A program made the position numbers and the translations under genes. Of a stretch of DNA of 29,432 nucleotides, positions 11,321 to 28,615 are shown piece after piece. The notes under the pieces are model-generated. The model was not told the DNA's origin. It saw only the letters and a list, made by a program, of their open reading frames with translations, and made no database searches. Source of the stretch: a virus. The stretch spans positions 1 to 29,432 of the IMG/VR virus record IMGVR_UViG_3300035698_001887; one strand, given 5' to 3'. Every line of letters starts with the position of its first letter. Within the stretch, counting starts at the first letter, position 1.

Positions 11321-11425
11321 TCAAATCAAAGTGCCCCCACGGAAGGCAAGACTGGGCAGAAGAGAAACCCCAGCGTTTGATTGCACCATCGTGGGGCAGA
11401 GGTCATGTATCAATCGAATGCTCAT
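11321..11425 (-). CDS. 34-codon remnant ORF sharing the methyltransferase start
   Basis: The ATG at 11425 overlaps the methyltransferase stop (TGATG) exactly as the methyltransferase itself overlaps the gene before it. It begins MSIRLIHD, the same first seven residues as the methyltransferase, because the 35-bp repeat is copied here, then diverges into sequence that resembles nothing known and stops at 11321, just before the PLD-like gene. It most likely is a scar from recombination or gene gain rather than a working gene. An imperfect inverted repeat (11332-11341 with 11390-11398) lies inside it. Confidence 0.4.
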   Translation of the reverse strand: MSIRLIHDLCPTMVQSNAGVSLLPSLAFRGGTLI

Positions 11426-11438
11426 CAGTCTACCTGTC
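11404..11438. repeat. 35-bp direct repeat, downstream copy
   Basis: These 35 bases are identical to 12261-12295. They cover the end of the methyltransferase gene (GQVD stop) and the start of the 34-codon remnant. The offset between the copies is 857 bases, one base less than the gene length, because the stop and start codons overlap. Confidence 0.97.
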
Positions 11439-12282
11439 CTGCCGGTGCGATTTCAAGAGTCAGTTGTTCCCGTGCCGCTTCGATGCGGCGCTGGGCTATG
11501 TCGTAGTAGTCGCGCTCAATCTCGATGCCGACGAATGAGCGACCGAGGTTGTGCGCAGCGACGCCGGTCGTGCCCGATCCCATGAAGGGGTCGAGGATGA
11601 TTGCGCCCTCTCGTGTCATCATCTCAACAAGCCGCTCACAGACGGGCGTCGGCTTCTGCGTTGGGTGCGATAGGTCCTGCCCATTCTTCGACAGTGTATT
11701 CGGCAGAAATGACCATACATTCGTGTAGTTCGCGGTTCGTGCGGACCTATCGCTAGGAACGGCGAATCGCTTATACTCATCAGATCGGTGACCCTTGTTG
11801 TCGTGTGGCGACTCATTGCCATTCATTTTACTGCGCAATGATGCGATGTATTTCTTTATGCCTTCGATGGACACGGTATCGAACATTACGCCGGGGCATT
11901 TCACATCTTCATAGGGGCCGCGTGTTGTGTAGAACTTCTTATTCTGCCCTACGGCGTAGACGAGAATGGACTCATGCCCACGCGACAACCTTGCACATGG
12001 TGTGCAGTGGCGTTTAACCCACGCGATGTGTTCGCAGAAATGAACGCCGCAATTCATAAACTCCGCGTGCCACTCAAACATGATCGGGGCTTGTGTAAAT
12101 ACGCAGACAAACTCACGGGCCACTCTGATCATCTCTGGAATGGCCTTGACCGCAATGTCAGATTGATCCCACGACTGACTAAGCACACCATACGGCATAT
12201 CCGTCACAACAGCATCCACGCTATTGTCTGGCATGTCTCGCATCACCTCAAGGCAGTCGCCATGTATCAATCGAATGCTCAT
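11425..12282 (-). CDS. DNA methyltransferase, beta-class order (adenine or N4-cytosine)
   Basis: This 285-residue protein starts with ATG at 12282, overlapping the preceding TGA. The catalytic motif IV is VVTDMPYG near residues 25-32, a DPPY variant with Met in second place. The S-adenosylmethionine-binding motif DPFMGSGTTGVAA lies near the C-terminus, followed by GIEIERDYYDIAQRRIE. Catalytic before cofactor motif is the beta-class order. No restriction endonuclease is encoded next to it, so it is an orphan enzyme that may protect phage DNA from host restriction. The whole gene is bracketed by 35-bp direct repeats. Confidence 0.92.
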   Translation of the reverse strand: MSIRLIHGDCLEVMRDMPDNSVDAVVTDMPYGVLSQSWDQSDIAVKAIPEMIRVAREFVCVFTQAPIMFEWHAEFMNCGVHFCEHIAWVKRHCTPCARLSRGHESILVYAVGQNKKFYTTRGPYEDVKCPGVMFDTVSIEGIKKYIASLRSKMNGNESPHDNKGHRSDEYKRFAVPSDRSARTANYTNVWSFLPNTLSKNGQDLSHPTQKPTPVCERLVEMMTREGAIILDPFMGSGTTGVAAHNLGRSFVGIEIERDYYDIAQRRIEAAREQLTLEIAPAGQVD

Positions 12283-16249: not shown

Positions 16250-16277
16250 AATATACCACCCAATCCGAAGATGTCAA
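16250..16277 (-). promoter_or_regulatory. Leftward promoter of the divergent control region
   Basis: On the minus strand TTGACA (16277-16272), 16 bases, TATATT (16255-16250), or TATTAT at 18 bases. The -35 lies within a GTTGACAT box, and the -10 block matches that of the promoter at 15277. Confidence 0.75.
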
Positions 16278-16378
16278 CATGTAATCAAAATAAAGTCAAC
16301 ATTATTTTATACCCAAGATGAGAATCGTTGACATGGGCAATATAGAAGTGTATCATTGTATTCGAAAGGAGTTGACAT
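16271..16378. promoter_or_regulatory. Cluster of four GTTGAC-core boxes between divergent genes
   Basis: GTTGACAT occurs at 16271-16278 (minus), a GTTGAC core at 16295-16300 (minus), GTTGACAT at 16327-16334 (plus) and at 16371-16378 (plus, just before and into the regulator start codon). The first and third overlap the -35 elements of the two divergent promoters and the fourth overlaps the start of the regulator gene. This is the arrangement expected for operators of an autoregulated repressor. Part of the similarity comes from -35 consensus, so only the boxes at 16295 and 16371 are independent evidence. Confidence 0.5.
16328..16356 (+). promoter_or_regulatory. Rightward promoter of the regulator/lipoprotein island
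   Basis: TTGACA (16328-16333), exactly 17 bases, TATCAT (16351-16356). Transcription would start near 16363, about 14 bases before the ATG of the regulator, with an AAAGGAG ribosome site in that short leader. Confidence 0.85.
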
Positions 16379-17241: not shown

Positions 17242-17401
17242 CCAACAACTCCAACTGCTCAAGTGGATTGTAACGATCTTCAGACTCATCCACATGCTCA
17301 GTCAGCATCCTAAACCGCAGAACCTCCGAGCGGCTCATGAGCACGTGCTGACCGCTGTCGAGCGTGACGACGCATATTCTGTCGTGCCATATGATCTGCA
17401 T
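17231..17401 (-). CDS. Unknown small protein, 56 residues
   Basis: The ATG at 17401 overlaps the methyltransferase stop (TAATG). The protein starts MQIIWHDRICVVTLDSGQHV, with two or three strands, then LMSRSEVLRFRMLTEHVDES and a Leu/Glu-rich end (LEQLELLDAD). No family is recognised. Its last part is repeated, shortened, at 15855-15905. The SSB-tail frame starts within its last four codons. Confidence 0.6.
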   Translation of the reverse strand: MQIIWHDRICVVTLDSGQHVLMSRSEVLRFRMLTEHVDESEDRYNPLEQLELLDAD

Positions 17402-18600
17402 TACTTCGGCTCCGTTGCAAAGAAACTCGTTTGCGCGGCGTGAGGTTGTATCCGTTTTCTTGCTAGTTCCATGTATTCAGCGTTGTTGTCGATGCCAATG
17501 AAGCGTCGTCCTTCTTTGAGCGCGACGGCGCCGGTTGTGCCTGATCCGCAGAAGGGGTCGAGGATAGTGCATGGTTCTGGTTCCAGTGGTTCAGGCGGGA
17601 ATGAGTCTCCACCCTTTGCGCATTCGCACGATGGCTTCCATCCTGTAGTGGTTTTGAGTTTCATCCCTTCGAGTATGCGACGTTTGACATCGGATGGGTT
17701 CTCGGCTAGAGATGGGTCGTAGTCCTTTCGTGCGTTGCCGTTGTATCCACCTGTGCTGTCTGCCCCGCACTGTTTCTGATGTTCCGTATCGGGTTCGCCT
17801 TTTGTGACTACTCGGACCCACGGTGCTCCACATCGGGGGCATTGTCCGTGTGCCGATGATCCAGCGAGGATACACGGTTCCACTAGCTTCTCAGGAAACG
17901 TGGCGAAGTGCGCGTCTGGATACGGCTGCGTCGGGAGCGTCCAGACCGTGCGGCGGTTGCGGCCATTACCCTGTGCGGATGCCGTTGCCGAAACAACAGA
18001 CTTCCCCCACTTCCCAGATGTGGGGCTATTTGGTTCCCGAATCGCATCTGCGTCATAGTAATATCGTGCGGACTTCGTGAGCAGGAACATGTATTCGTGC
18101 GCTCGCGTCGGTCGGTCAGTGACGCTCTCAGGCATGGGGTTCGGCTTTGCCCAGATGATATCCGAGCGCAGCCACCAGCCGTCGTCTTGCAACGCGAGGG
18201 CCACCCGCCACGGAATGCCAACGAGGTCTTTAGGCTTTAGTCCGTAGTTGCTTTTGCTTGCAACTACTCCAATACTGCCCACGTTCGCGCGTTGCATCTT
18301 ACCCTCAGTTCCATGCGATTTACCATCCGCGTAAAGCCCGCGCCCACTACCGGCATAGCTATCCCCTAGATTGAGCCATAGCGTGCCATCCTGTTTCAAC
18401 ACACGCCGCACCTCGCGGAATACATCAACGAGACGAGCGACGTATTCTTGTGGCGTGGATTCCAACCCGATCTGCCCGTCCGTGCCGTAGTCACGCAGTC
18501 CCCAGTATGGCGGGGATGTGACACAGCACTGGACTGATTCGGGGTCGAGTTGCTGGAGGCCGTCTATCACGTCGGCGTTTATCAGGTTGACGATCTGCAT
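17401..18600 (-). CDS. DNA methyltransferase with zinc-ribbon insertion (N4-cytosine or adenine)
   Basis: The start is the ATG at 18600 (TGATG junction), giving 399 residues; the longer frame to 18696 is not supported. The catalytic motif is CCVTSPPYWGLRDYG near residues 25-39, and the cofactor motif is ILDPFCGSGTTGAVA near residue 350 with GIDNNAEYMELARKRI after it. Between them are GIPWRVALALQDDGWWLRSD and PNPMPESVTDRPTRAHEYMF, both usual in beta-class enzymes. A Cys cluster (GQCPRCGAPW, later CEC) suggests a zinc-ribbon insertion seen in many phage members. SPPY often marks N4-cytosine enzymes, but adenine enzymes occur. No partner nuclease is nearby. Role in hiding phage DNA from restriction is an inference. 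Confidence 0.93.
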   Translation of the reverse strand: MQIVNLINADVIDGLQQLDPESVQCCVTSPPYWGLRDYGTDGQIGLESTPQEYVARLVDVFREVRRVLKQDGTLWLNLGDSYAGSGRGLYADGKSHGTEGKMQRANVGSIGVVASKSNYGLKPKDLVGIPWRVALALQDDGWWLRSDIIWAKPNPMPESVTDRPTRAHEYMFLLTKSARYYYDADAIREPNSPTSGKWGKSVVSATASAQGNGRNRRTVWTLPTQPYPDAHFATFPEKLVEPCILAGSSAHGQCPRCGAPWVRVVTKGEPDTEHQKQCGADSTGGYNGNARKDYDPSLAENPSDVKRRILEGMKLKTTTGWKPSCECAKGGDSFPPEPLEPEPCTILDPFCGSGTTGAVALKEGRRFIGIDNNAEYMELARKRIQPHAAQTSFFATEPK

Positions 18601-18673
18601 CACTTCGACTCCATGATTACTTCGATGTACAGCGTGTCGTCGATGACGTACGTCGTGCAGCGTTGCGTGTAGA

Positions 18674-19054
18674 TCAGAGAGCGGGCACTGGCGCAATCTG
18701 CACCCGTTGCGCTTTGTGCTGGACGCGCTGAGACGGCGCTGGTATCATGCTCCAACTGAGAAACGACATGTAGACCGCCGCGCACGATATGACGAGTGCT
18801 GGGATGTATTTTTTCATCATTCCGACTCCTGCTTTGTCAGCGAATAGCCAGCCCTTCCCACGTAAGGACAGCACGAAGCAGCCGGAGTTATGCACTTTCC
18901 ATCCCCCGATTTCCTGCTTAGAGCCACAAAAGATGCACCTCTCATGGTATTCGCCGTCGTCCTCCTTATCGAAGACGAACGGACGCCACCCCGTCTTCTG
19001 AGCGATACGGCAAAGCATCGTCTCTAGTGCATCAAGTCTTTCTTCTGTTGTCAT
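18674..19054 (-). CDS. Fusion-like small protein: Cys domain plus membrane segment
   Basis: The ATG at 19054 follows AAGAAGG and gives 126 residues. The first part, MTTEERLDALETMLCRIAQ, then ERCIFCGSKQEIGGWKVHNSGC, looks like a small phage zinc protein of the CxxCG...H...C type. From residue 79 the frame continues MMKKYIPALVISCAAVYMSF, a start-like basic N-terminus and membrane helix, followed by a Pro/Gln-rich tail. An AGGAG site sits just before these internal ATGs (18820, 18817), so a 48-residue membrane protein could be made separately in the same frame. The full product may be a fused pair of genes. Confidence 0.62.
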   Translation of the reverse strand: MTTEERLDALETMLCRIAQKTGWRPFVFDKEDDGEYHERCIFCGSKQEIGGWKVHNSGCFVLSLRGKGWLFADKAGVGMMKKYIPALVISCAAVYMSFLSWSMIPAPSQRVQHKAQRVQIAPVPAL

Positions 19055-20742: not shown

Positions 20743-22182
20743 TTAAAACGGTGACTCGTTTGTATCGGTATCACTCTCGGTTGTTGCGTCTGCCCACTCG
20801 CCAGTTTCGGTCGCACTGAACTCCACGAATCGTCCGAACTCCGGCTGCCAGCGAGTCCTCATGACTCCGGTCGGGCCGTTGCGCTGCTTCTCAAGGATTA
20901 TCTCTGCCATGCCGCGCAGATCGTGCCCATCATCGTCGCGAGTCTGCCCATAATATTCCGGTCGATGAATGAAGATCACGGCGTCGGCGTCCTGTTCGAT
21001 GTTGCCGGAATCGCGGAGGTCTGACAGCCTCGGTCGGTTGTCTCCACGCTTCTCAACATCTCGCGTCACTTGCGATACGATCACAATCGGAATCTGGAGC
21101 TCGCCAGCCAGCGCCTTAAACGACTGCATGATCTCACCAATTTCCTGCCAGTGATTGTGCAGGCGTTGGTTCGGTTGCATCAATCCGATGTAGTCAACCA
21201 TGATGATGGCCGCACCTTCGTCGTTCACGAGCCGTCGTGCCTCCGCTCGCACCTGCCGTGGTGAGATGCCCGGCGTGTCGTCGATGTAGAGCGGCGCTTG
21301 CACAATGAGTCCGGTCGCGGGACTGAGCCGATTCCATGATTCATCCGACAGCCGTCCGCGTCGTGCAACGTGAGAGTTCACGCGAGCCTCTGAGCAGATG
21401 AGCCGCCGTGTGATCGCTTCGCCGGTCATTTCCAAGGAGAAGAATCCGACCGTCTGACCGACCTTCGTCGTGATGTGGCGAGCGCAATTCAGAGCAAACG
21501 CCGTCTTGCCCATGCCGGGTCGTGCCGCAATGACGGTGAGTTCGGCGGGTTGGAATCCTGCTGTCAGATTGTCCAGGCCCGTGAACCCACTCGGCACTCC
21601 GAGAATTGAGTCGGGGTTGTCGGCGGCAGCCTCGAATTGATCGTAGACGATGTTGGCGAAATGCCGGACGTGCTGTAATCCGGTGGTGTAGGTCCGGCGT
21701 GAGATCTTGCTCATGTCGCTGTCGAAGCCACCCACCATCTCGGTCAGATCGACAGACTGGTCGTAACACTGCGTAACGAGTTTGCTGGCGCGTGTGATCA
21801 TCTGCCGGCGCGTCGCATAATCTGCGAGCAACTGCGCATGGTATTCCACGTTGCTGCTTGTTCCGACGCTGAAGGCAATGTCCGCCAGATACGCGGGACC
21901 GCCGCACTCGTCGAGGACGCCTTTGCTCTCAAGCTCCTCTGAGAGCATCGTCAGATCAACAGGCCGGTTCTCGTCGTCGAGGCGGACCATCGCGTCCCAG
22001 ATTTCACGGTGCCGTCCTCGGTAGAACATCTGCCGGTCGAGGATCGTGTTCGCCTTGCCGATAGCCTGCTTGTTGAGCATCATGGCACCGAGCACGCACT
22101 GCTCAAGCTCGATGGAATGCGGTGGCAAGCGTTCGGCTGTCGGCTCTTCCATGTCGTTGACTGGCGCGTCGTCAGGAATCAT
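20743..22182 (-). CDS. dnaB: Replicative DNA helicase, DnaB family
   Basis: The ATG at 22182 overlaps the previous gene by 11 bases and gives 479 residues. The N-terminal helical domain (IELEQCVLGAMMLNKQAI, residues 24-41) is followed by a linker and the RecA-like motor: Walker A in AARPGMGKTAFALN (about 219-232), a second motif in FFSLEMTGEAITRRLI, Walker B in AIIMVDYIGLMQP, and later VIVVSQVTRDVEKR and LSDLRDSGNIEQDADAV. It unwinds DNA ahead of the fork. The DnaC-like loader and the initiator-like protein lie upstream in the same direction. The last residues, DTDTNESPF, are acidic and end in Pro-Phe, which is unusual for DnaB. Confidence 0.97.
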   Translation of the reverse strand: MIPDDAPVNDMEEPTAERLPPHSIELEQCVLGAMMLNKQAIGKANTILDRQMFYRGRHREIWDAMVRLDDENRPVDLTMLSEELESKGVLDECGGPAYLADIAFSVGTSSNVEYHAQLLADYATRRQMITRASKLVTQCYDQSVDLTEMVGGFDSDMSKISRRTYTTGLQHVRHFANIVYDQFEAAADNPDSILGVPSGFTGLDNLTAGFQPAELTVIAARPGMGKTAFALNCARHITTKVGQTVGFFSLEMTGEAITRRLICSEARVNSHVARRGRLSDESWNRLSPATGLIVQAPLYIDDTPGISPRQVRAEARRLVNDEGAAIIMVDYIGLMQPNQRLHNHWQEIGEIMQSFKALAGELQIPIVIVSQVTRDVEKRGDNRPRLSDLRDSGNIEQDADAVIFIHRPEYYGQTRDDDGHDLRGMAEIILEKQRNGPTGVMRTRWQPEFGRFVEFSATETGEWADATTESDTDTNESPF

Positions 22183-23518: not shown

Positions 23519-24045
23519 CCCTCTCCACCTTTCTCTGCCACCGGGAACATCTCCGCCAGCGCGTCCGGGTCGAAGTGGCGGGCTAGCGTCTCGGCGTGGT
23601 ATGGCAAGTGCTCGATTGTCGGATCATCAACCAGCATACGGGCCGTATGGTTTGGTGCGCGAGCAACCCAACGCTCATCCCATGTTACAAGTTGCCCACC
23701 GCGCATGTAGTGCCCACCAGCCGAGAGGTCTGGGATACTCGTCCACACCCACCCGTCGAACGCCTTGATCGCGTCGCGGATGGCGATTCCCTCTTCGCAC
23801 AACCAGCCGCTTATCATCAGGTAGTCGTTGCGTAGCATCTCGTAAGTCATGAAGGCGCTCACAGCTTCGCCTACCGGCTCTGCCTTCCACGGCCACGCTC
23901 GACCTATCATTCCGCCGCCATCGATTCGGTAAAACTCGATTCGGTAAAACTCGATTCGGTAAAACGGTTCGTTCGTCGTGGCGCTGATCGTATGCAGCTC
24001 GCACCGCGCCGTCTTGATCGCCTCACGTATCTCTTCGTGCGTCAT
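23515..24045 (-). CDS. Unknown protein with FYRIE tandem repeat, 176 residues
   Basis: The ATG at 24045 overlaps the loader stop (ATGA) after GGAGG; a longer frame to 24240 lies inside the loader gene. The N-terminus (MTHEEIREAIKTARCELHTI) is followed by FYRIEFYRIEFYRID, from three perfect 15-base repeats. The rest has Trp-rich parts (AIRDAIKAFDGWVWTSIPD, GGQLVTWDERWVARAPNHTA) and ends DPDALAEMFPVAEKGGEG. The Trp/Asp/His pattern resembles phage proteins of the kind sometimes placed near loaders, but no family can be named. Confidence 0.66.
   Translation of the reverse strand: MTHEEIREAIKTARCELHTISATTNEPFYRIEFYRIEFYRIDGGGMIGRAWPWKAEPVGEAVSAFMTYEMLRNDYLMISGWLCEEGIAIRDAIKAFDGWVWTSIPDLSAGGHYMRGGQLVTWDERWVARAPNHTARMLVDDPTIEHLPYHAETLARHFDPDALAEMFPVAEKGGEG
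23921..23965. repeat. Perfect 15-bp tandem repeat, three copies
   Basis: The unit tcgattcggtaaaac occurs three times without spacing or error. It keeps the reading frame and encodes FYRIE/FYRID. The perfect identity points to a recent expansion by slippage. Confidence 0.97.
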
Positions 24046-24683
24046 TGTCCACCTCCCTGTAGTCTGAAGTCGGGTCCGTCCATCGCCAGCACCGGCGCGG
24101 ATCGCTCCAAGATTCTCGACACAACCCGCTCGTTGAACAGCGCCTTCAGTCCGCTCGGTGGCACGTTGCTGGTGTAGATCGTCGGCAACTTGTTTGCATA
24201 CCGATAGTCTGAAATCCGGTAGAACTGTTCCTGTACCCACGGCGTCGATGCACTGACAGCAACATCATCCAGCACAAGCAGCTTCGCGTCGCACGCATCA
24301 CCAAGCGGGCTTTCGGTTTCATGATCGAACGACGCCTTGATCGCAGCGTAAAGCTCTGACACGCTCCAGTATCGCACCGGCCACACACGCTGCCTGATCG
24401 CCTCTATCGCGATTGTATAGGCCGTGTGCGTCTTGCCGTTTCCGGGCTTTCCCCACACGTAGAGGTCGCCTTGCCGCCGCCAGTCATCCGTCGCCATGTA
24501 AGCCGGCGCTCGGCTGACCATCTGGGATGCGCTGGGATGCGACGTGTCGAGGTCGTCAAGCGTGGACGATCTGCGCTCTGCCGGAATGCCAGCGAGGTCG
24601 AGTCTACTGAGAAACACTGGCGCGTCGTTGGTGAATGGCTTTGATTGCTTCCTCACTTCGCCCGTCCATTCTGAGTTCATCAT
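24042..24683 (-). CDS. DnaC-like helicase loader (AAA+ ATPase)
   Basis: The ATG at 24683, after GGGAGGGA, overlaps the initiator gene by 80 bases and gives 213 residues. Walker A is VWGKPGNGKTHTAY (about residues 76-89), Walker B is AKLLVLDDVA (133-142), sensor-like TIYTSNVPPSGL follows, and an Arg finger candidate lies in RILERS. The layout matches DnaC/IstB-type loaders such as lambda P's functional counterparts in other phages. It should place the phage DnaB on single-stranded DNA at the origin. The N-terminal region is the probable helicase contact. Confidence 0.92.
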   Translation of the reverse strand: MMNSEWTGEVRKQSKPFTNDAPVFLSRLDLAGIPAERRSSTLDDLDTSHPSASQMVSRAPAYMATDDWRRQGDLYVWGKPGNGKTHTAYTIAIEAIRQRVWPVRYWSVSELYAAIKASFDHETESPLGDACDAKLLVLDDVAVSASTPWVQEQFYRISDYRYANKLPTIYTSNVPPSGLKALFNERVVSRILERSAPVLAMDGPDFRLQGGGQ

Positions 24684-25695
24684 CGGTCAATCCCTCCCCT
24701 GATAGTGCGTCGGTCCCCGTTGCGATAGGTGTCGTGTGCCCGTTCTGCGCTGCACGTTTCTGTTTGCCGCGCATCCAATCCGTAACGAATCGCCACGGCT
24801 TATCTACCGGCTCACCATCACGGAGCTTCGTAAGGTGAGATTCGGTGGCTTCCATGATATCCGCCGCGTCGAATGAGTCCCACTGTTGCAGTTGCGTCTG
24901 AATCGTTCGCCACGTGATGCGCCCCGATCCGATAGCGCGGCCCTCAATGAGCGGCTTGCATGGTGCGAGCGCTGCGAACCAGTACGCGATGATGCGTTGT
25001 GCGTCGTTGTCTGCTGGGAATGCCTTCCGAATGCGTGGCTCAATGTGGCACATGATGCTTCGCTGAATGAGATCACTCGTATCGTCGTCGATCTGGATTC
25101 CATCAGGGAAGTCAACAGCGAAGTGATCTGAGGAAGAGTCTTCTCGCGCCTGCGCGGTAGTAGTATTAGTTGTAGTAGGTTTATTTATATACGCGCGCGA
25201 GGGGGGAGAAGCGTCACCAGTGTCGTTTCTTTTGTCCGAACTTTCCAAACCTCCTACGTTTTTGTCGCTTCTCTTCAAAGGTGCGTCATTTTTGACGCTT
25301 CTTTTGTCCGATGTTTCCTGAGAAGCGTCACCAGTGTCGTTTCTTTTCAAAGGTGCGTCACCAGTGTCGTTTCTTTTGTCCGAACTTTCCAACGCGATTG
25401 TCAGATGCCTCGACCCACGAATGGATGTAATGAGTATCAAATCGCTCAATCCTTCGACGGCTCTCTGATACGTTCTCGTTTCCAATCCAGTCATCCGACG
25501 CAACGCCACATGCGTTGTCTCAAACTCTTCCGGCCAGTCCCGCTCTGCAAACTCATGAAGGATTGCCAAGTAGAGCTTGCAGGCGTTGGGAGTTAGTTGC
25601 GAAGCGAACCCGCCGTCCCAAAACTGCGACAACGCCTCGACGTATCTAGTCTCTTCCATGTCGCCCCCTGTAATCCACTCGATTCGTGCGATCAT
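24604..25695 (-). CDS. Replication initiator-like protein (O-type), carries repeats
   Basis: The ATG at 25695 has GGAGGAGG just upstream; ATG 25659 is a second choice. The 363 residues start with a likely winged helix (ACKLYLAILHEFAERDWP, FETTHVALRRMTGLETRTYQ, GLSDLILITSIRGS). Residues 102-162 are a low-complexity repeat (SSDKRNDTGDA units), followed by Thr/Asn-rich linker and a helical C-terminal domain (IIAYWFAALAPCKPLIEG, ITWRTIQTQLQQWDSFDA). An N-terminal DNA-binding wing, a repetitive middle encoded by DNA repeats, and a C-terminal domain next to a loader gene are the layout of lambda O and related initiators. Identity as initiator is inferred. Confidence 0.75.
   Translation of the reverse strand: MIARIEWITGGDMEETRYVEALSQFWDGGFASQLTPNACKLYLAILHEFAERDWPEEFETTHVALRRMTGLETRTYQRAVEGLSDLILITSIRGSRHLTIALESSDKRNDTGDAPLKRNDTGDASQETSDKRSVKNDAPLKRSDKNVGGLESSDKRNDTGDASPPSRAYINKPTTTNTTTAQAREDSSSDHFAVDFPDGIQIDDDTSDLIQRSIMCHIEPRIRKAFPADNDAQRIIAYWFAALAPCKPLIEGRAIGSGRITWRTIQTQLQQWDSFDAADIMEATESHLTKLRDGEPVDKPWRFVTDWMRGKQKRAAQNGHTTPIATGTDALSGEGLTDDELRMDGRSEEAIKAIHQRRASVSQ
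25158..25392. repeat. Candidate replication origin: repeat cluster plus AT-rich tract
   Basis: Five units with core tgtcgtttctttt or close variants lie at 25221, 25263, 25293, 25335 and 25365 (starts). A 38-base block is identical at 25211-25248 and 25355-25392, and a 28-base block at 25206-25233 and 25320-25347. At 25158-25191 a nearly pure A+T and G/T tract with ttatttatata follows on the downstream side of the initiator gene. Lambda has iterons within gene O followed by an AT-rich unwinding region in the direction of O transcription, as here. Spacing is less regular than in lambda, so the function is not proved. Confidence 0.62.
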
Positions 25696-26658: not shown

Positions 26659-27591
26659 CTACGCCGCCACCTTGTCAGCTTCGGCGTTCATCATCTTGAG
26701 CAGGTCATCCCGCTCGTTGTCGTTCAGGTCATCGAGCTCGCGTCCGGTGTAGTTCTCCGCCGCGAACATCATGAGCTTCTCGTCGTCCCAACCGAGTGCC
26801 TGCTGAGCGTCGCGTATCGGCGTGGATTCTGGCGACTGGTCTGTTGCCGGAACGTCGATGATGTTGTCGTCCTCGAAATTTGGACGTTCGATGGTTTTCT
26901 CGTCCGCATTCTCGGATCGCGTGAACTCGCTCGACATCGGCAGATACTTCGACAGCGCACGGATGCACGTCTTCTTTGCCATCTCATCGAACTCAGTCTT
27001 CCACGGGCTGTCGGAACGAGTGTAGCCCTTGCTGTACTTGTTTCGGTGTATCTCGATATCCTCTTTACCCATCACGACGAAGCTGCGTCCGCCGTCCTTA
27101 AGAACCGCAACAGCGTAGTAAGCGTATGCCGCTCCGCGACCCTTCAGGGTGGGCTTGTGAACGAGCGTCGATTCCAGCCCGTAGGAGTATTCAAACTCGT
27201 CACCTTCGCACACCTCATGCGCGTCGATGTTGATGAGCCGTCCACTCCTGCGAGCAAGGTCGATCAGGCCACGGTAGCCGATGACGAGCGTTGCTTCCTT
27301 GCCGTATGGAATCAGATACGCCTGTCCAAGCGTCCCCGGCTCTAAGCCGAGCTTTGCGCACTCCATGACGCACCCGACAAGCGACGGCACTGAGCACTCC
27401 AGGAGCTTCGGCGTCATGCGAATCGCGTTCAGGCTGATGCGCAACAGGCGAGAGCTCGTCATATGCGATGGTAAAATACTCTCGATGGCTCGCTTATTCT
27501 GCGCCAAATACGTCGCCACCGTCTTATCGGGCGTTTCGCCGCCGTTGCTGCCGTTGGCGTTGCCGATGTTTTTTGCGAGGTCAGTCGCCAT
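26659..27591 (-). CDS. recT: RecT-family single-strand annealing protein
   Basis: The ATG at 27591 overlaps the exonuclease end by 11 bases and gives 310 residues. RecT signatures are present: TVATYLAQNKRAIESILPSH, LECSVPSLVGCVMECAKLGL followed by EPGTLGQAYLIPYG, then VIGYRGLIDLARRSG and GKEDIEIHRNKYSKG, and a conserved AKKTCIRALSKYLPMS. It binds single-stranded DNA and anneals complementary strands after the partner exonuclease resects ends. The acidic C-terminal tail (EDDNIIDVPATDQSPESTP onward) is usual. Confidence 0.97.
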   Translation of the reverse strand: MATDLAKNIGNANGSNGGETPDKTVATYLAQNKRAIESILPSHMTSSRLLRISLNAIRMTPKLLECSVPSLVGCVMECAKLGLEPGTLGQAYLIPYGKEATLVIGYRGLIDLARRSGRLINIDAHEVCEGDEFEYSYGLESTLVHKPTLKGRGAAYAYYAVAVLKDGGRSFVVMGKEDIEIHRNKYSKGYTRSDSPWKTEFDEMAKKTCIRALSKYLPMSSEFTRSENADEKTIERPNFEDDNIIDVPATDQSPESTPIRDAQQALGWDDEKLMMFAAENYTGRELDDLNDNERDDLLKMMNAEADKVAA

Positions 27592-28615
27592 TCTTCACAC
27601 TCCTCTTCTTGACTAACAGGCTTCGGTTGCCGGGCTTCTCTTCGAGGTAAAACGCGTAGGTAAGGGGCTTCTCTTCCTCGAATCGCGTGCGGTTGAACAC
27701 TGGCGGAACCGGATCGACAAACTCTGCGAACAAGTCAGGCTCAACTCCCTCGAATCGCTCCTGATCGAACACCAGCGACGGCTTCCCATTCTTCCATGTC
27801 ACGGCGGGTTTCCCATCGGGGTATCGACCGATTGTGGCGTCCTTCAAAGCGTCGCGGAGTTTGTTGCCCGCTTCCTGCTTGCGAGCCTTCGCGTCCTTCT
27901 CGTCCTGATGCGCCTGTAGGTAGCCCTGCGCCAGCGCAAGCTCATCCTCGTCGAGGTCAACAGCGTTATCGTTCTTGCCGACCGGATACAGCGTCTTGAG
28001 GACGTTCGTGCAATCGTCCGATCCGTCCATCGCTGGCGGCGTGCCACTTGTAACGAGATTCCAGAACTCCTGCTCGACACTTATGAGCGCGGCGATAGCC
28101 TCCTCGTCGCGTTCGATCTTCTCAATTCGGAGCTCGAACCCATGATTCGCTATCAGTGCCGCGAAGTATCCGAACTGGAATCCCGTGACGGCTAGGTAAT
28201 GTTGCATCTGAATCAGATACATCTCAGGGATACCGTCTGCCCAGAGTTGTTCGGATGAACTGAGCTTGCACTCCAGCACACCTTGCCCTTCGGATGTGTA
28301 GACGATCCGGTCAAGGTTCGCCAGCATCCAGTCATGTTCGTCGTGCTGTAGGATAGCGTTCCTGCGACGGATGCTCAGGCCGGTCCTCGCTGCGAACTCG
28401 CGAGCGATATCCTCCTCAAGGATCGTGCCCCACTTCATCGTCTCGGTTTCGTCCGTGTGCAGCGCTTGCCCTGTCTTCTCAAGCCACACACGCACTCGTG
28501 AGCGCCACGGATTGAGGTTGACGACGGCGGCGGCATCTGAGCCACCTAACCCCGTCATGCGGGAATCGAGCCACTGATCGCGATCAAGCTCCCGCGTCTC
28601 GGTAAGTATCCTCAT
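27581..28615 (-). CDS. YqaJ-type alkaline exonuclease (RecE/lambda exo partner)
   Basis: The ATG at 28615 overlaps the previous stop (ATGA) after GGAGGAGG. The start has the typical motif WLDSRMTGLGGSDAAAVVNL then NPWRSRVRVWLEKTG; the catalytic part is LANLDRIVYTSEGQGVLECK, where Asp and Glu-x-Lys form a PD-(D/E)xK site, followed by SEQLWADGIPEMYLIQMQHY. Such enzymes degrade one strand from a double-strand end to produce single strands for RecT. Length of 344 is near family norms with an extra C-terminal part. It forms a pair with recT. Confidence 0.92.
   Translation of the reverse strand: MRILTETRELDRDQWLDSRMTGLGGSDAAAVVNLNPWRSRVRVWLEKTGQALHTDETETMKWGTILEEDIAREFAARTGLSIRRRNAILQHDEHDWMLANLDRIVYTSEGQGVLECKLSSSEQLWADGIPEMYLIQMQHYLAVTGFQFGYFAALIANHGFELRIEKIERDEEAIAALISVEQEFWNLVTSGTPPAMDGSDDCTNVLKTLYPVGKNDNAVDLDEDELALAQGYLQAHQDEKDAKARKQEAGNKLRDALKDATIGRYPDGKPAVTWKNGKPSLVFDQERFEGVEPDLFAEFVDPVPPVFNRTRFEEEKPLTYAFYLEEKPGNRSLLVKKRSVKNGD

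Follow-up and report, generated by a model that had tools for sequence, protein, structure and literature searches.

Phage replication origins can lie inside the gene of their own initiator protein, a principle known since lambda and SPP1. In SPP1, gp38 binds the oriL direct repeats within gene 38, beside an AT-rich unwinding element, and initiation requires gp38, the loader gp39, and the helicase gp40 (PMC6316719). The lambda origin maps within O, where near-perfect 19-bp inverted repeats bind O dimers and a 40-bp A+T-rich region lies beside these iterons (PMC5043065; PMC7466680). We located the lambda iterons at positions 535–619 of locus L097, inside O.

The DNA analyzed here (the window) is the whole IMG/VR virus record IMGVR_UViG_3300035698_001887, 29,432 bases long. 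The record is a genome fragment of an unclassified, uncultivated tailed phage with a base composition of about 44% A+T. The original prediction placed a lambda-like origin within the putative initiator gene of this phage.

Gene context and the putative initiator

The early genes are found on the minus strand in the order exonuclease, RecT, two small unknown ORFs, initiator-like gene, loader, further ORFs, and DnaB. The head genes (portal, terminase, protease, and capsid) lie at 4–10 kb. The genes relevant to replication are:

27581–28615, minus strand: YqaJ/RecE-type exonuclease (PF09588, 1.5e-38; phrog_434, 3.9e-93)
26659–27591, minus strand: RecT annealing protein (PF03837, 3e-51; top phage matches GBK2 and SPP1 G35P)
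24604–25695, minus strand: putative replication initiator, O/G38P-like by position (ORF directly upstream of the loader; weak PHROG matches)
25387–25659, minus strand: putative N-terminal DNA-binding domain of the initiator (phrog_8102 match at residues 20–79; winged-helix-like by eye)
24042–24683, minus strand: DnaC-like helicase loader (PF01695, 1.3e-10; phrog_50, 1.6e-46)
20743–22182, minus strand: DnaB-type replicative helicase (PF03796, 1.6e-90)

Genes for a loader and a replicative helicase are therefore present beside the putative initiator. The loader gene is adjacent to it, as had been predicted, but DnaB is nearby and not next to the loader, the two being about 1.9 kb apart with other ORFs in between. 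The loader ORF start (ATG at 24683, with GGGAGGG upstream) overlaps the 3' end of the initiator gene by about 80 nt (24604–24683). The ORF downstream of the loader carries an exact 15-nt tandem repeat, TCGATTCGGTAAAAC, in three copies at 23921–23965. Two DNA methyltransferases, both phrog_67 and both on the minus strand (11425–12282 and 17401–18696), are also encoded in this one 29-kb fragment.

The initiator ORF encodes 363 aa counted from the first ATG. The true start is likely M13 (25659), which is favoured by its AGGGGGCGACATG context. No significant match to the protein was obtained in Pfam or NCBIfam, including any significant profile match to Phage_rep_O or an O-like family, and the weak PHROG matches are confined to the N-terminal domain, the best being to two replication initiation families (E of 0.0032 and 0.043). 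A comparison with lambda O by hhalign gave a probability below 1%, with no significant similarity. AF2 modelling from the single sequence resulted in no confident fold (pLDDT of 40 for the whole protein and 53 for the N-terminal domain), and a Foldseek search with the predicted structure returned nothing at E below 1. The initiator is thus an orphan protein, and we infer its class membership from the layout of the locus.

Homologs of the initiator were not found in viral contigs, genome contigs, or phages. Searches with the loader or DnaB gave no close relatives, the repeat pattern had no match in viral contigs, and neither a capsid search of genomes nor a portal search of viral contigs recovered relatives. 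The only close relative found is L098 (IMGVR_UViG_3300033141_000569), an 8.7-kb fragment whose major capsid protein is 74% identical; an initiator match is absent from this fragment. The RecT loci L003–L005 are distant, and the L003 initiator is unrelated.

The repeat array and the AT-rich tract

Within the initiator gene, the repeats follow the region for the putative N-terminal DNA-binding domain and precede the C-terminal part. Listed in coding order, the elements are:

25355–25377, minus strand: repeat copy 1, AAAAGAAACGACACTGGTGACGC (23-mer search)
25325–25347, minus strand: repeat copy 2, the same 23-mer as copy 1 (23-mer search)
25283–25305, minus strand: repeat copy 3, perfect dyad GCGTCA-AAAA-TGACGC (23-mer search and arm pairing)
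25253–25275, minus strand: repeat copy 4, right half decayed (core search and arm pairing)
25211–25233, minus strand: repeat copy 5, 23-mer identical to copy 1 (23-mer search)
about 25157–25191, minus strand: AT-rich tract, putative DNA unwinding element (best 30 nt 80% A+T)

Five related repeats with a 13-nt core had been predicted within the O-like gene. Allowing up to two mismatches, the core tgtcgtttctttt has five matches in the window, all of them within the array region (0.71 expected), one copy being decayed. The core is present in the array, but the conserved unit is longer than first described: it is 23 nt, AAAAGAARCGWCAMWRRTGACGC on the coding strand, with four clear copies and the decayed one. 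This 23-mer occurs four times in the array, with 0 expected from shuffles, and nowhere else in the 29.4-kb window, even allowing three mismatches. When the codons of the initiator gene were shuffled 1000 times, none of the shuffles reached the four copies of the real gene and one reached three; by the same detector, no other window gene of at least 200 aa exceeds three copies. The repeat array is not explained by chance.

In coding order, the copies are spaced 30, 42, 30, and 42 nt, so that a 72-nt/24-aa unit is repeated 2.5 times in the array. All of these spacings are multiples of three and keep the copies in frame, and this gene therefore does not offer the strongest argument for selection at the DNA level, which is the presence of out-of-frame copies. 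The encoded linker is charged and of low complexity, in agreement with the original prediction. Given the close likeness of copies 1, 2, and 5, recent duplication can account for their identity and common rare codons.

The AT-rich tract adjoins the array directly 3' of copy 5 in the coding direction, which is the lambda order that had been proposed. It ranks second in the window for A+T, surpassed by a single place near 16280; this top A+T place of the window spans 16262–16312. GC skew, which had been suggested as a check, tracks the coding direction over the window and points to no origin.

Copy 3 contains a perfect 6-4-6 palindrome with 6/6 arm pairs, while most copies have a partial dyad (arm pairs in copies 1 to 5: 4/6, 4/6, 6/6, 3/6, and 4/6). 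Copies 1 and 3 differ at two arm positions, and at both of them a mismatched pair in copy 1 is a matched pair in copy 3; the probability of this for two random substitutions is 0.007. As a sign of a palindrome this improvement is suggestive only, because the copies are related to one another and this gene gave no significant result in the automated palindrome test (p of 0.375).

The codon usage score over the repeats is −0.64, more atypical than all 299 windows from ten other phage genes (mean −0.32, sd 0.06, minimum −0.47), and the rare codons AGA, ACT, CCT, and TTG recur in the repeats. Between the 72-nt units, amino acid changes are nearly as free as silent ones (pN 0.30 vs pS 0.40). Both observations fit the earlier suggestion that the DNA rather than the protein is under selection, although the copies are non-independent through duplication and the in-frame spacing gives this suggestion no help.

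Comparison with other phages

Phages of similar gene order were compared because no homolog of the initiator had been found. SPP1 resembles the window in having repeats and an AT-rich element in its initiator gene, with exonuclease/RecT-type genes before it and a loader and a DnaB-type helicase after it. On the other hand, the SPP1 loader is the small G39P, whereas that of the window is a DnaC/IstB-like AAA+ protein. Sequence similarity between the two initiators is undetectable, and their repeats are unrelated, those of the window being clearer by the same measure.

The Geobacillus phage GBK2 has the same operon order in its gene 45 region. Its RecT is the best match of the window RecT (about 50% identity), and its portal is the second-best portal match. 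As in the window, repeats in the middle of the initiator gene are followed by AT-rich DNA. Those of GBK2 are palindromic: seven GTTGGTAAAACACCAAC-like repeats (GTTGGT-ACCAAC) are spaced 21–33 nt apart, and one is out of frame. The last two, copies 6 and 7, share an identical stretch of 21 nt and lie 23 nt apart; they are therefore read in different frames, which indicates selection on the DNA and not the protein. The GBK2 initiator matches phage O N-terminal and DnaD models, which the window protein does not. These mid-initiator repeats are a candidate origin of GBK2.

Lambda has four iterons followed by the 40-bp AT-rich region in the middle of the gene, and along the gene the two elements succeed each other as they do in the window. 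However, lambda uses the host DnaB and an unrelated loader, P, while the window phage encodes both a DnaC-like loader and DnaB, and the lambda iterons are spaced 20–24 nt compared to 30/42 nt in the window. By gene content, the window is closer to SPP1 and GBK2 than to lambda, and the term lambda-like is right as a description of the layout.

To cover this arrangement more widely, the gene upstream of the loader was taken from phages and from 80 viral loci that encode a DnaC-like loader. The resulting 77 genes formed 25 clusters, of which one RecT cluster was dropped to leave 24. L021 and L025, with repeats spaced 30/42, were rejected as relatives of the window phage since the gene picked there was RecT and the cluster was the one dropped. 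An array was scored when at least three copies of a 14-mer exceeded codon-shuffled controls (p below 0.05), using the best member per cluster. Arrays were detected in 18 of the 24 clusters, mostly near residues 85–170; not all of the surveyed genes are proven initiators, but most match replication-initiation PHROGs, and the arrays of L010, L018, and L019 are short low-complexity tandems that may not be iterons. Ten of the 18 have a spacing that is not a multiple of three. In 16, the most AT-rich stretch within 150 nt on the downstream side exceeds that on the upstream side, with one tie and one reverse case. The detector finds three copies in lambda O, while SPP1 gene 38 and L016 fall below its threshold; since SPP1 oriL has been demonstrated by experiment, true arrays can escape this detector. 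Judging from the survey, repeat arrays within the gene next to a helicase loader seem to be widespread among phages.

In Pseudomonas phage Skulduggery, CCCCTTCGGAAAAC repeats are spaced 20, 22, and 23. Arrays were observed in initiator genes of GBK2, Skulduggery, and IMG/VR contigs (L006:8985–9151; L014:2185–2271; L083, L076, L035, L062, and L091). Several of these are palindromic and out of frame, and the GBK2 and Skulduggery records have no origin annotation there.

Origin reading and alternatives

The repeats are very likely initiator-binding sites (iterons) and the AT-rich tract an unwinding element, which together would form a lambda/SPP1-type origin inside its own initiator gene. This reading fits because of the gene context, the position of the array, the array-then-AT order, the aberrant codons, and the recurrence of such arrays in unrelated phage initiators. 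The original prediction is thereby supported as a layout. At the level of sequence every element is present, and the locus can be assigned to the class of in-gene origins in this sense, as a believable new case of a known layout. The N-terminal domain of the initiator would bind the repeats, possibly as dimers, as the partial dyad hints. The nucleoprotein complex would then melt the AT-rich tract beside copy 5, and the C-terminal part of the initiator would recruit the DnaC-like loader, the product of the next gene, which in turn would load the phage DnaB.

The in-frame spacings and the 2.5 repeats of a 72-nt unit could also be produced by a protein-level tandem repeat, in which a flexible charged linker of 24 aa was expanded by slippage or unequal recombination and the DNA has no function; the charged, low-complexity sequence of the linker agrees with this. 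We consider such an expansion improbable, since the amino acids vary freely between the units, no other measured part of the phage has codon usage as aberrant as that of the repeats, the array directly borders one of the richest A+T places of the window, and unrelated initiators often have out-of-frame arrays in the corresponding position. Alternatively, the initiator or a different phage regulator may bind the repeats in operon autoregulation or a transcription block, with the true origin located elsewhere. Arrays of binding sites can serve in regulation, the SPP1 initiator also binds a second site, oriR (PMC6316719), and the contig is a fragment. The chance of this is nevertheless very small, as the 23-mer has no further copy in the 29.4 kb, the array sits in the middle of a gene, and the adjoining AT-rich tract is the partner expected of an origin and not of an operator. 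It is also rather unlikely that the initiator represents a separate protein family that independently acquired the layout of in-gene iterons and unwinding element, with an unusual paired 30/42-nt spacing.

The reading of the array and AT-rich tract as an in-gene origin gives an uncultivated orphan phage a testable origin. Beyond this phage, origins might be predictable from sequence in many phages that have no annotated origin.
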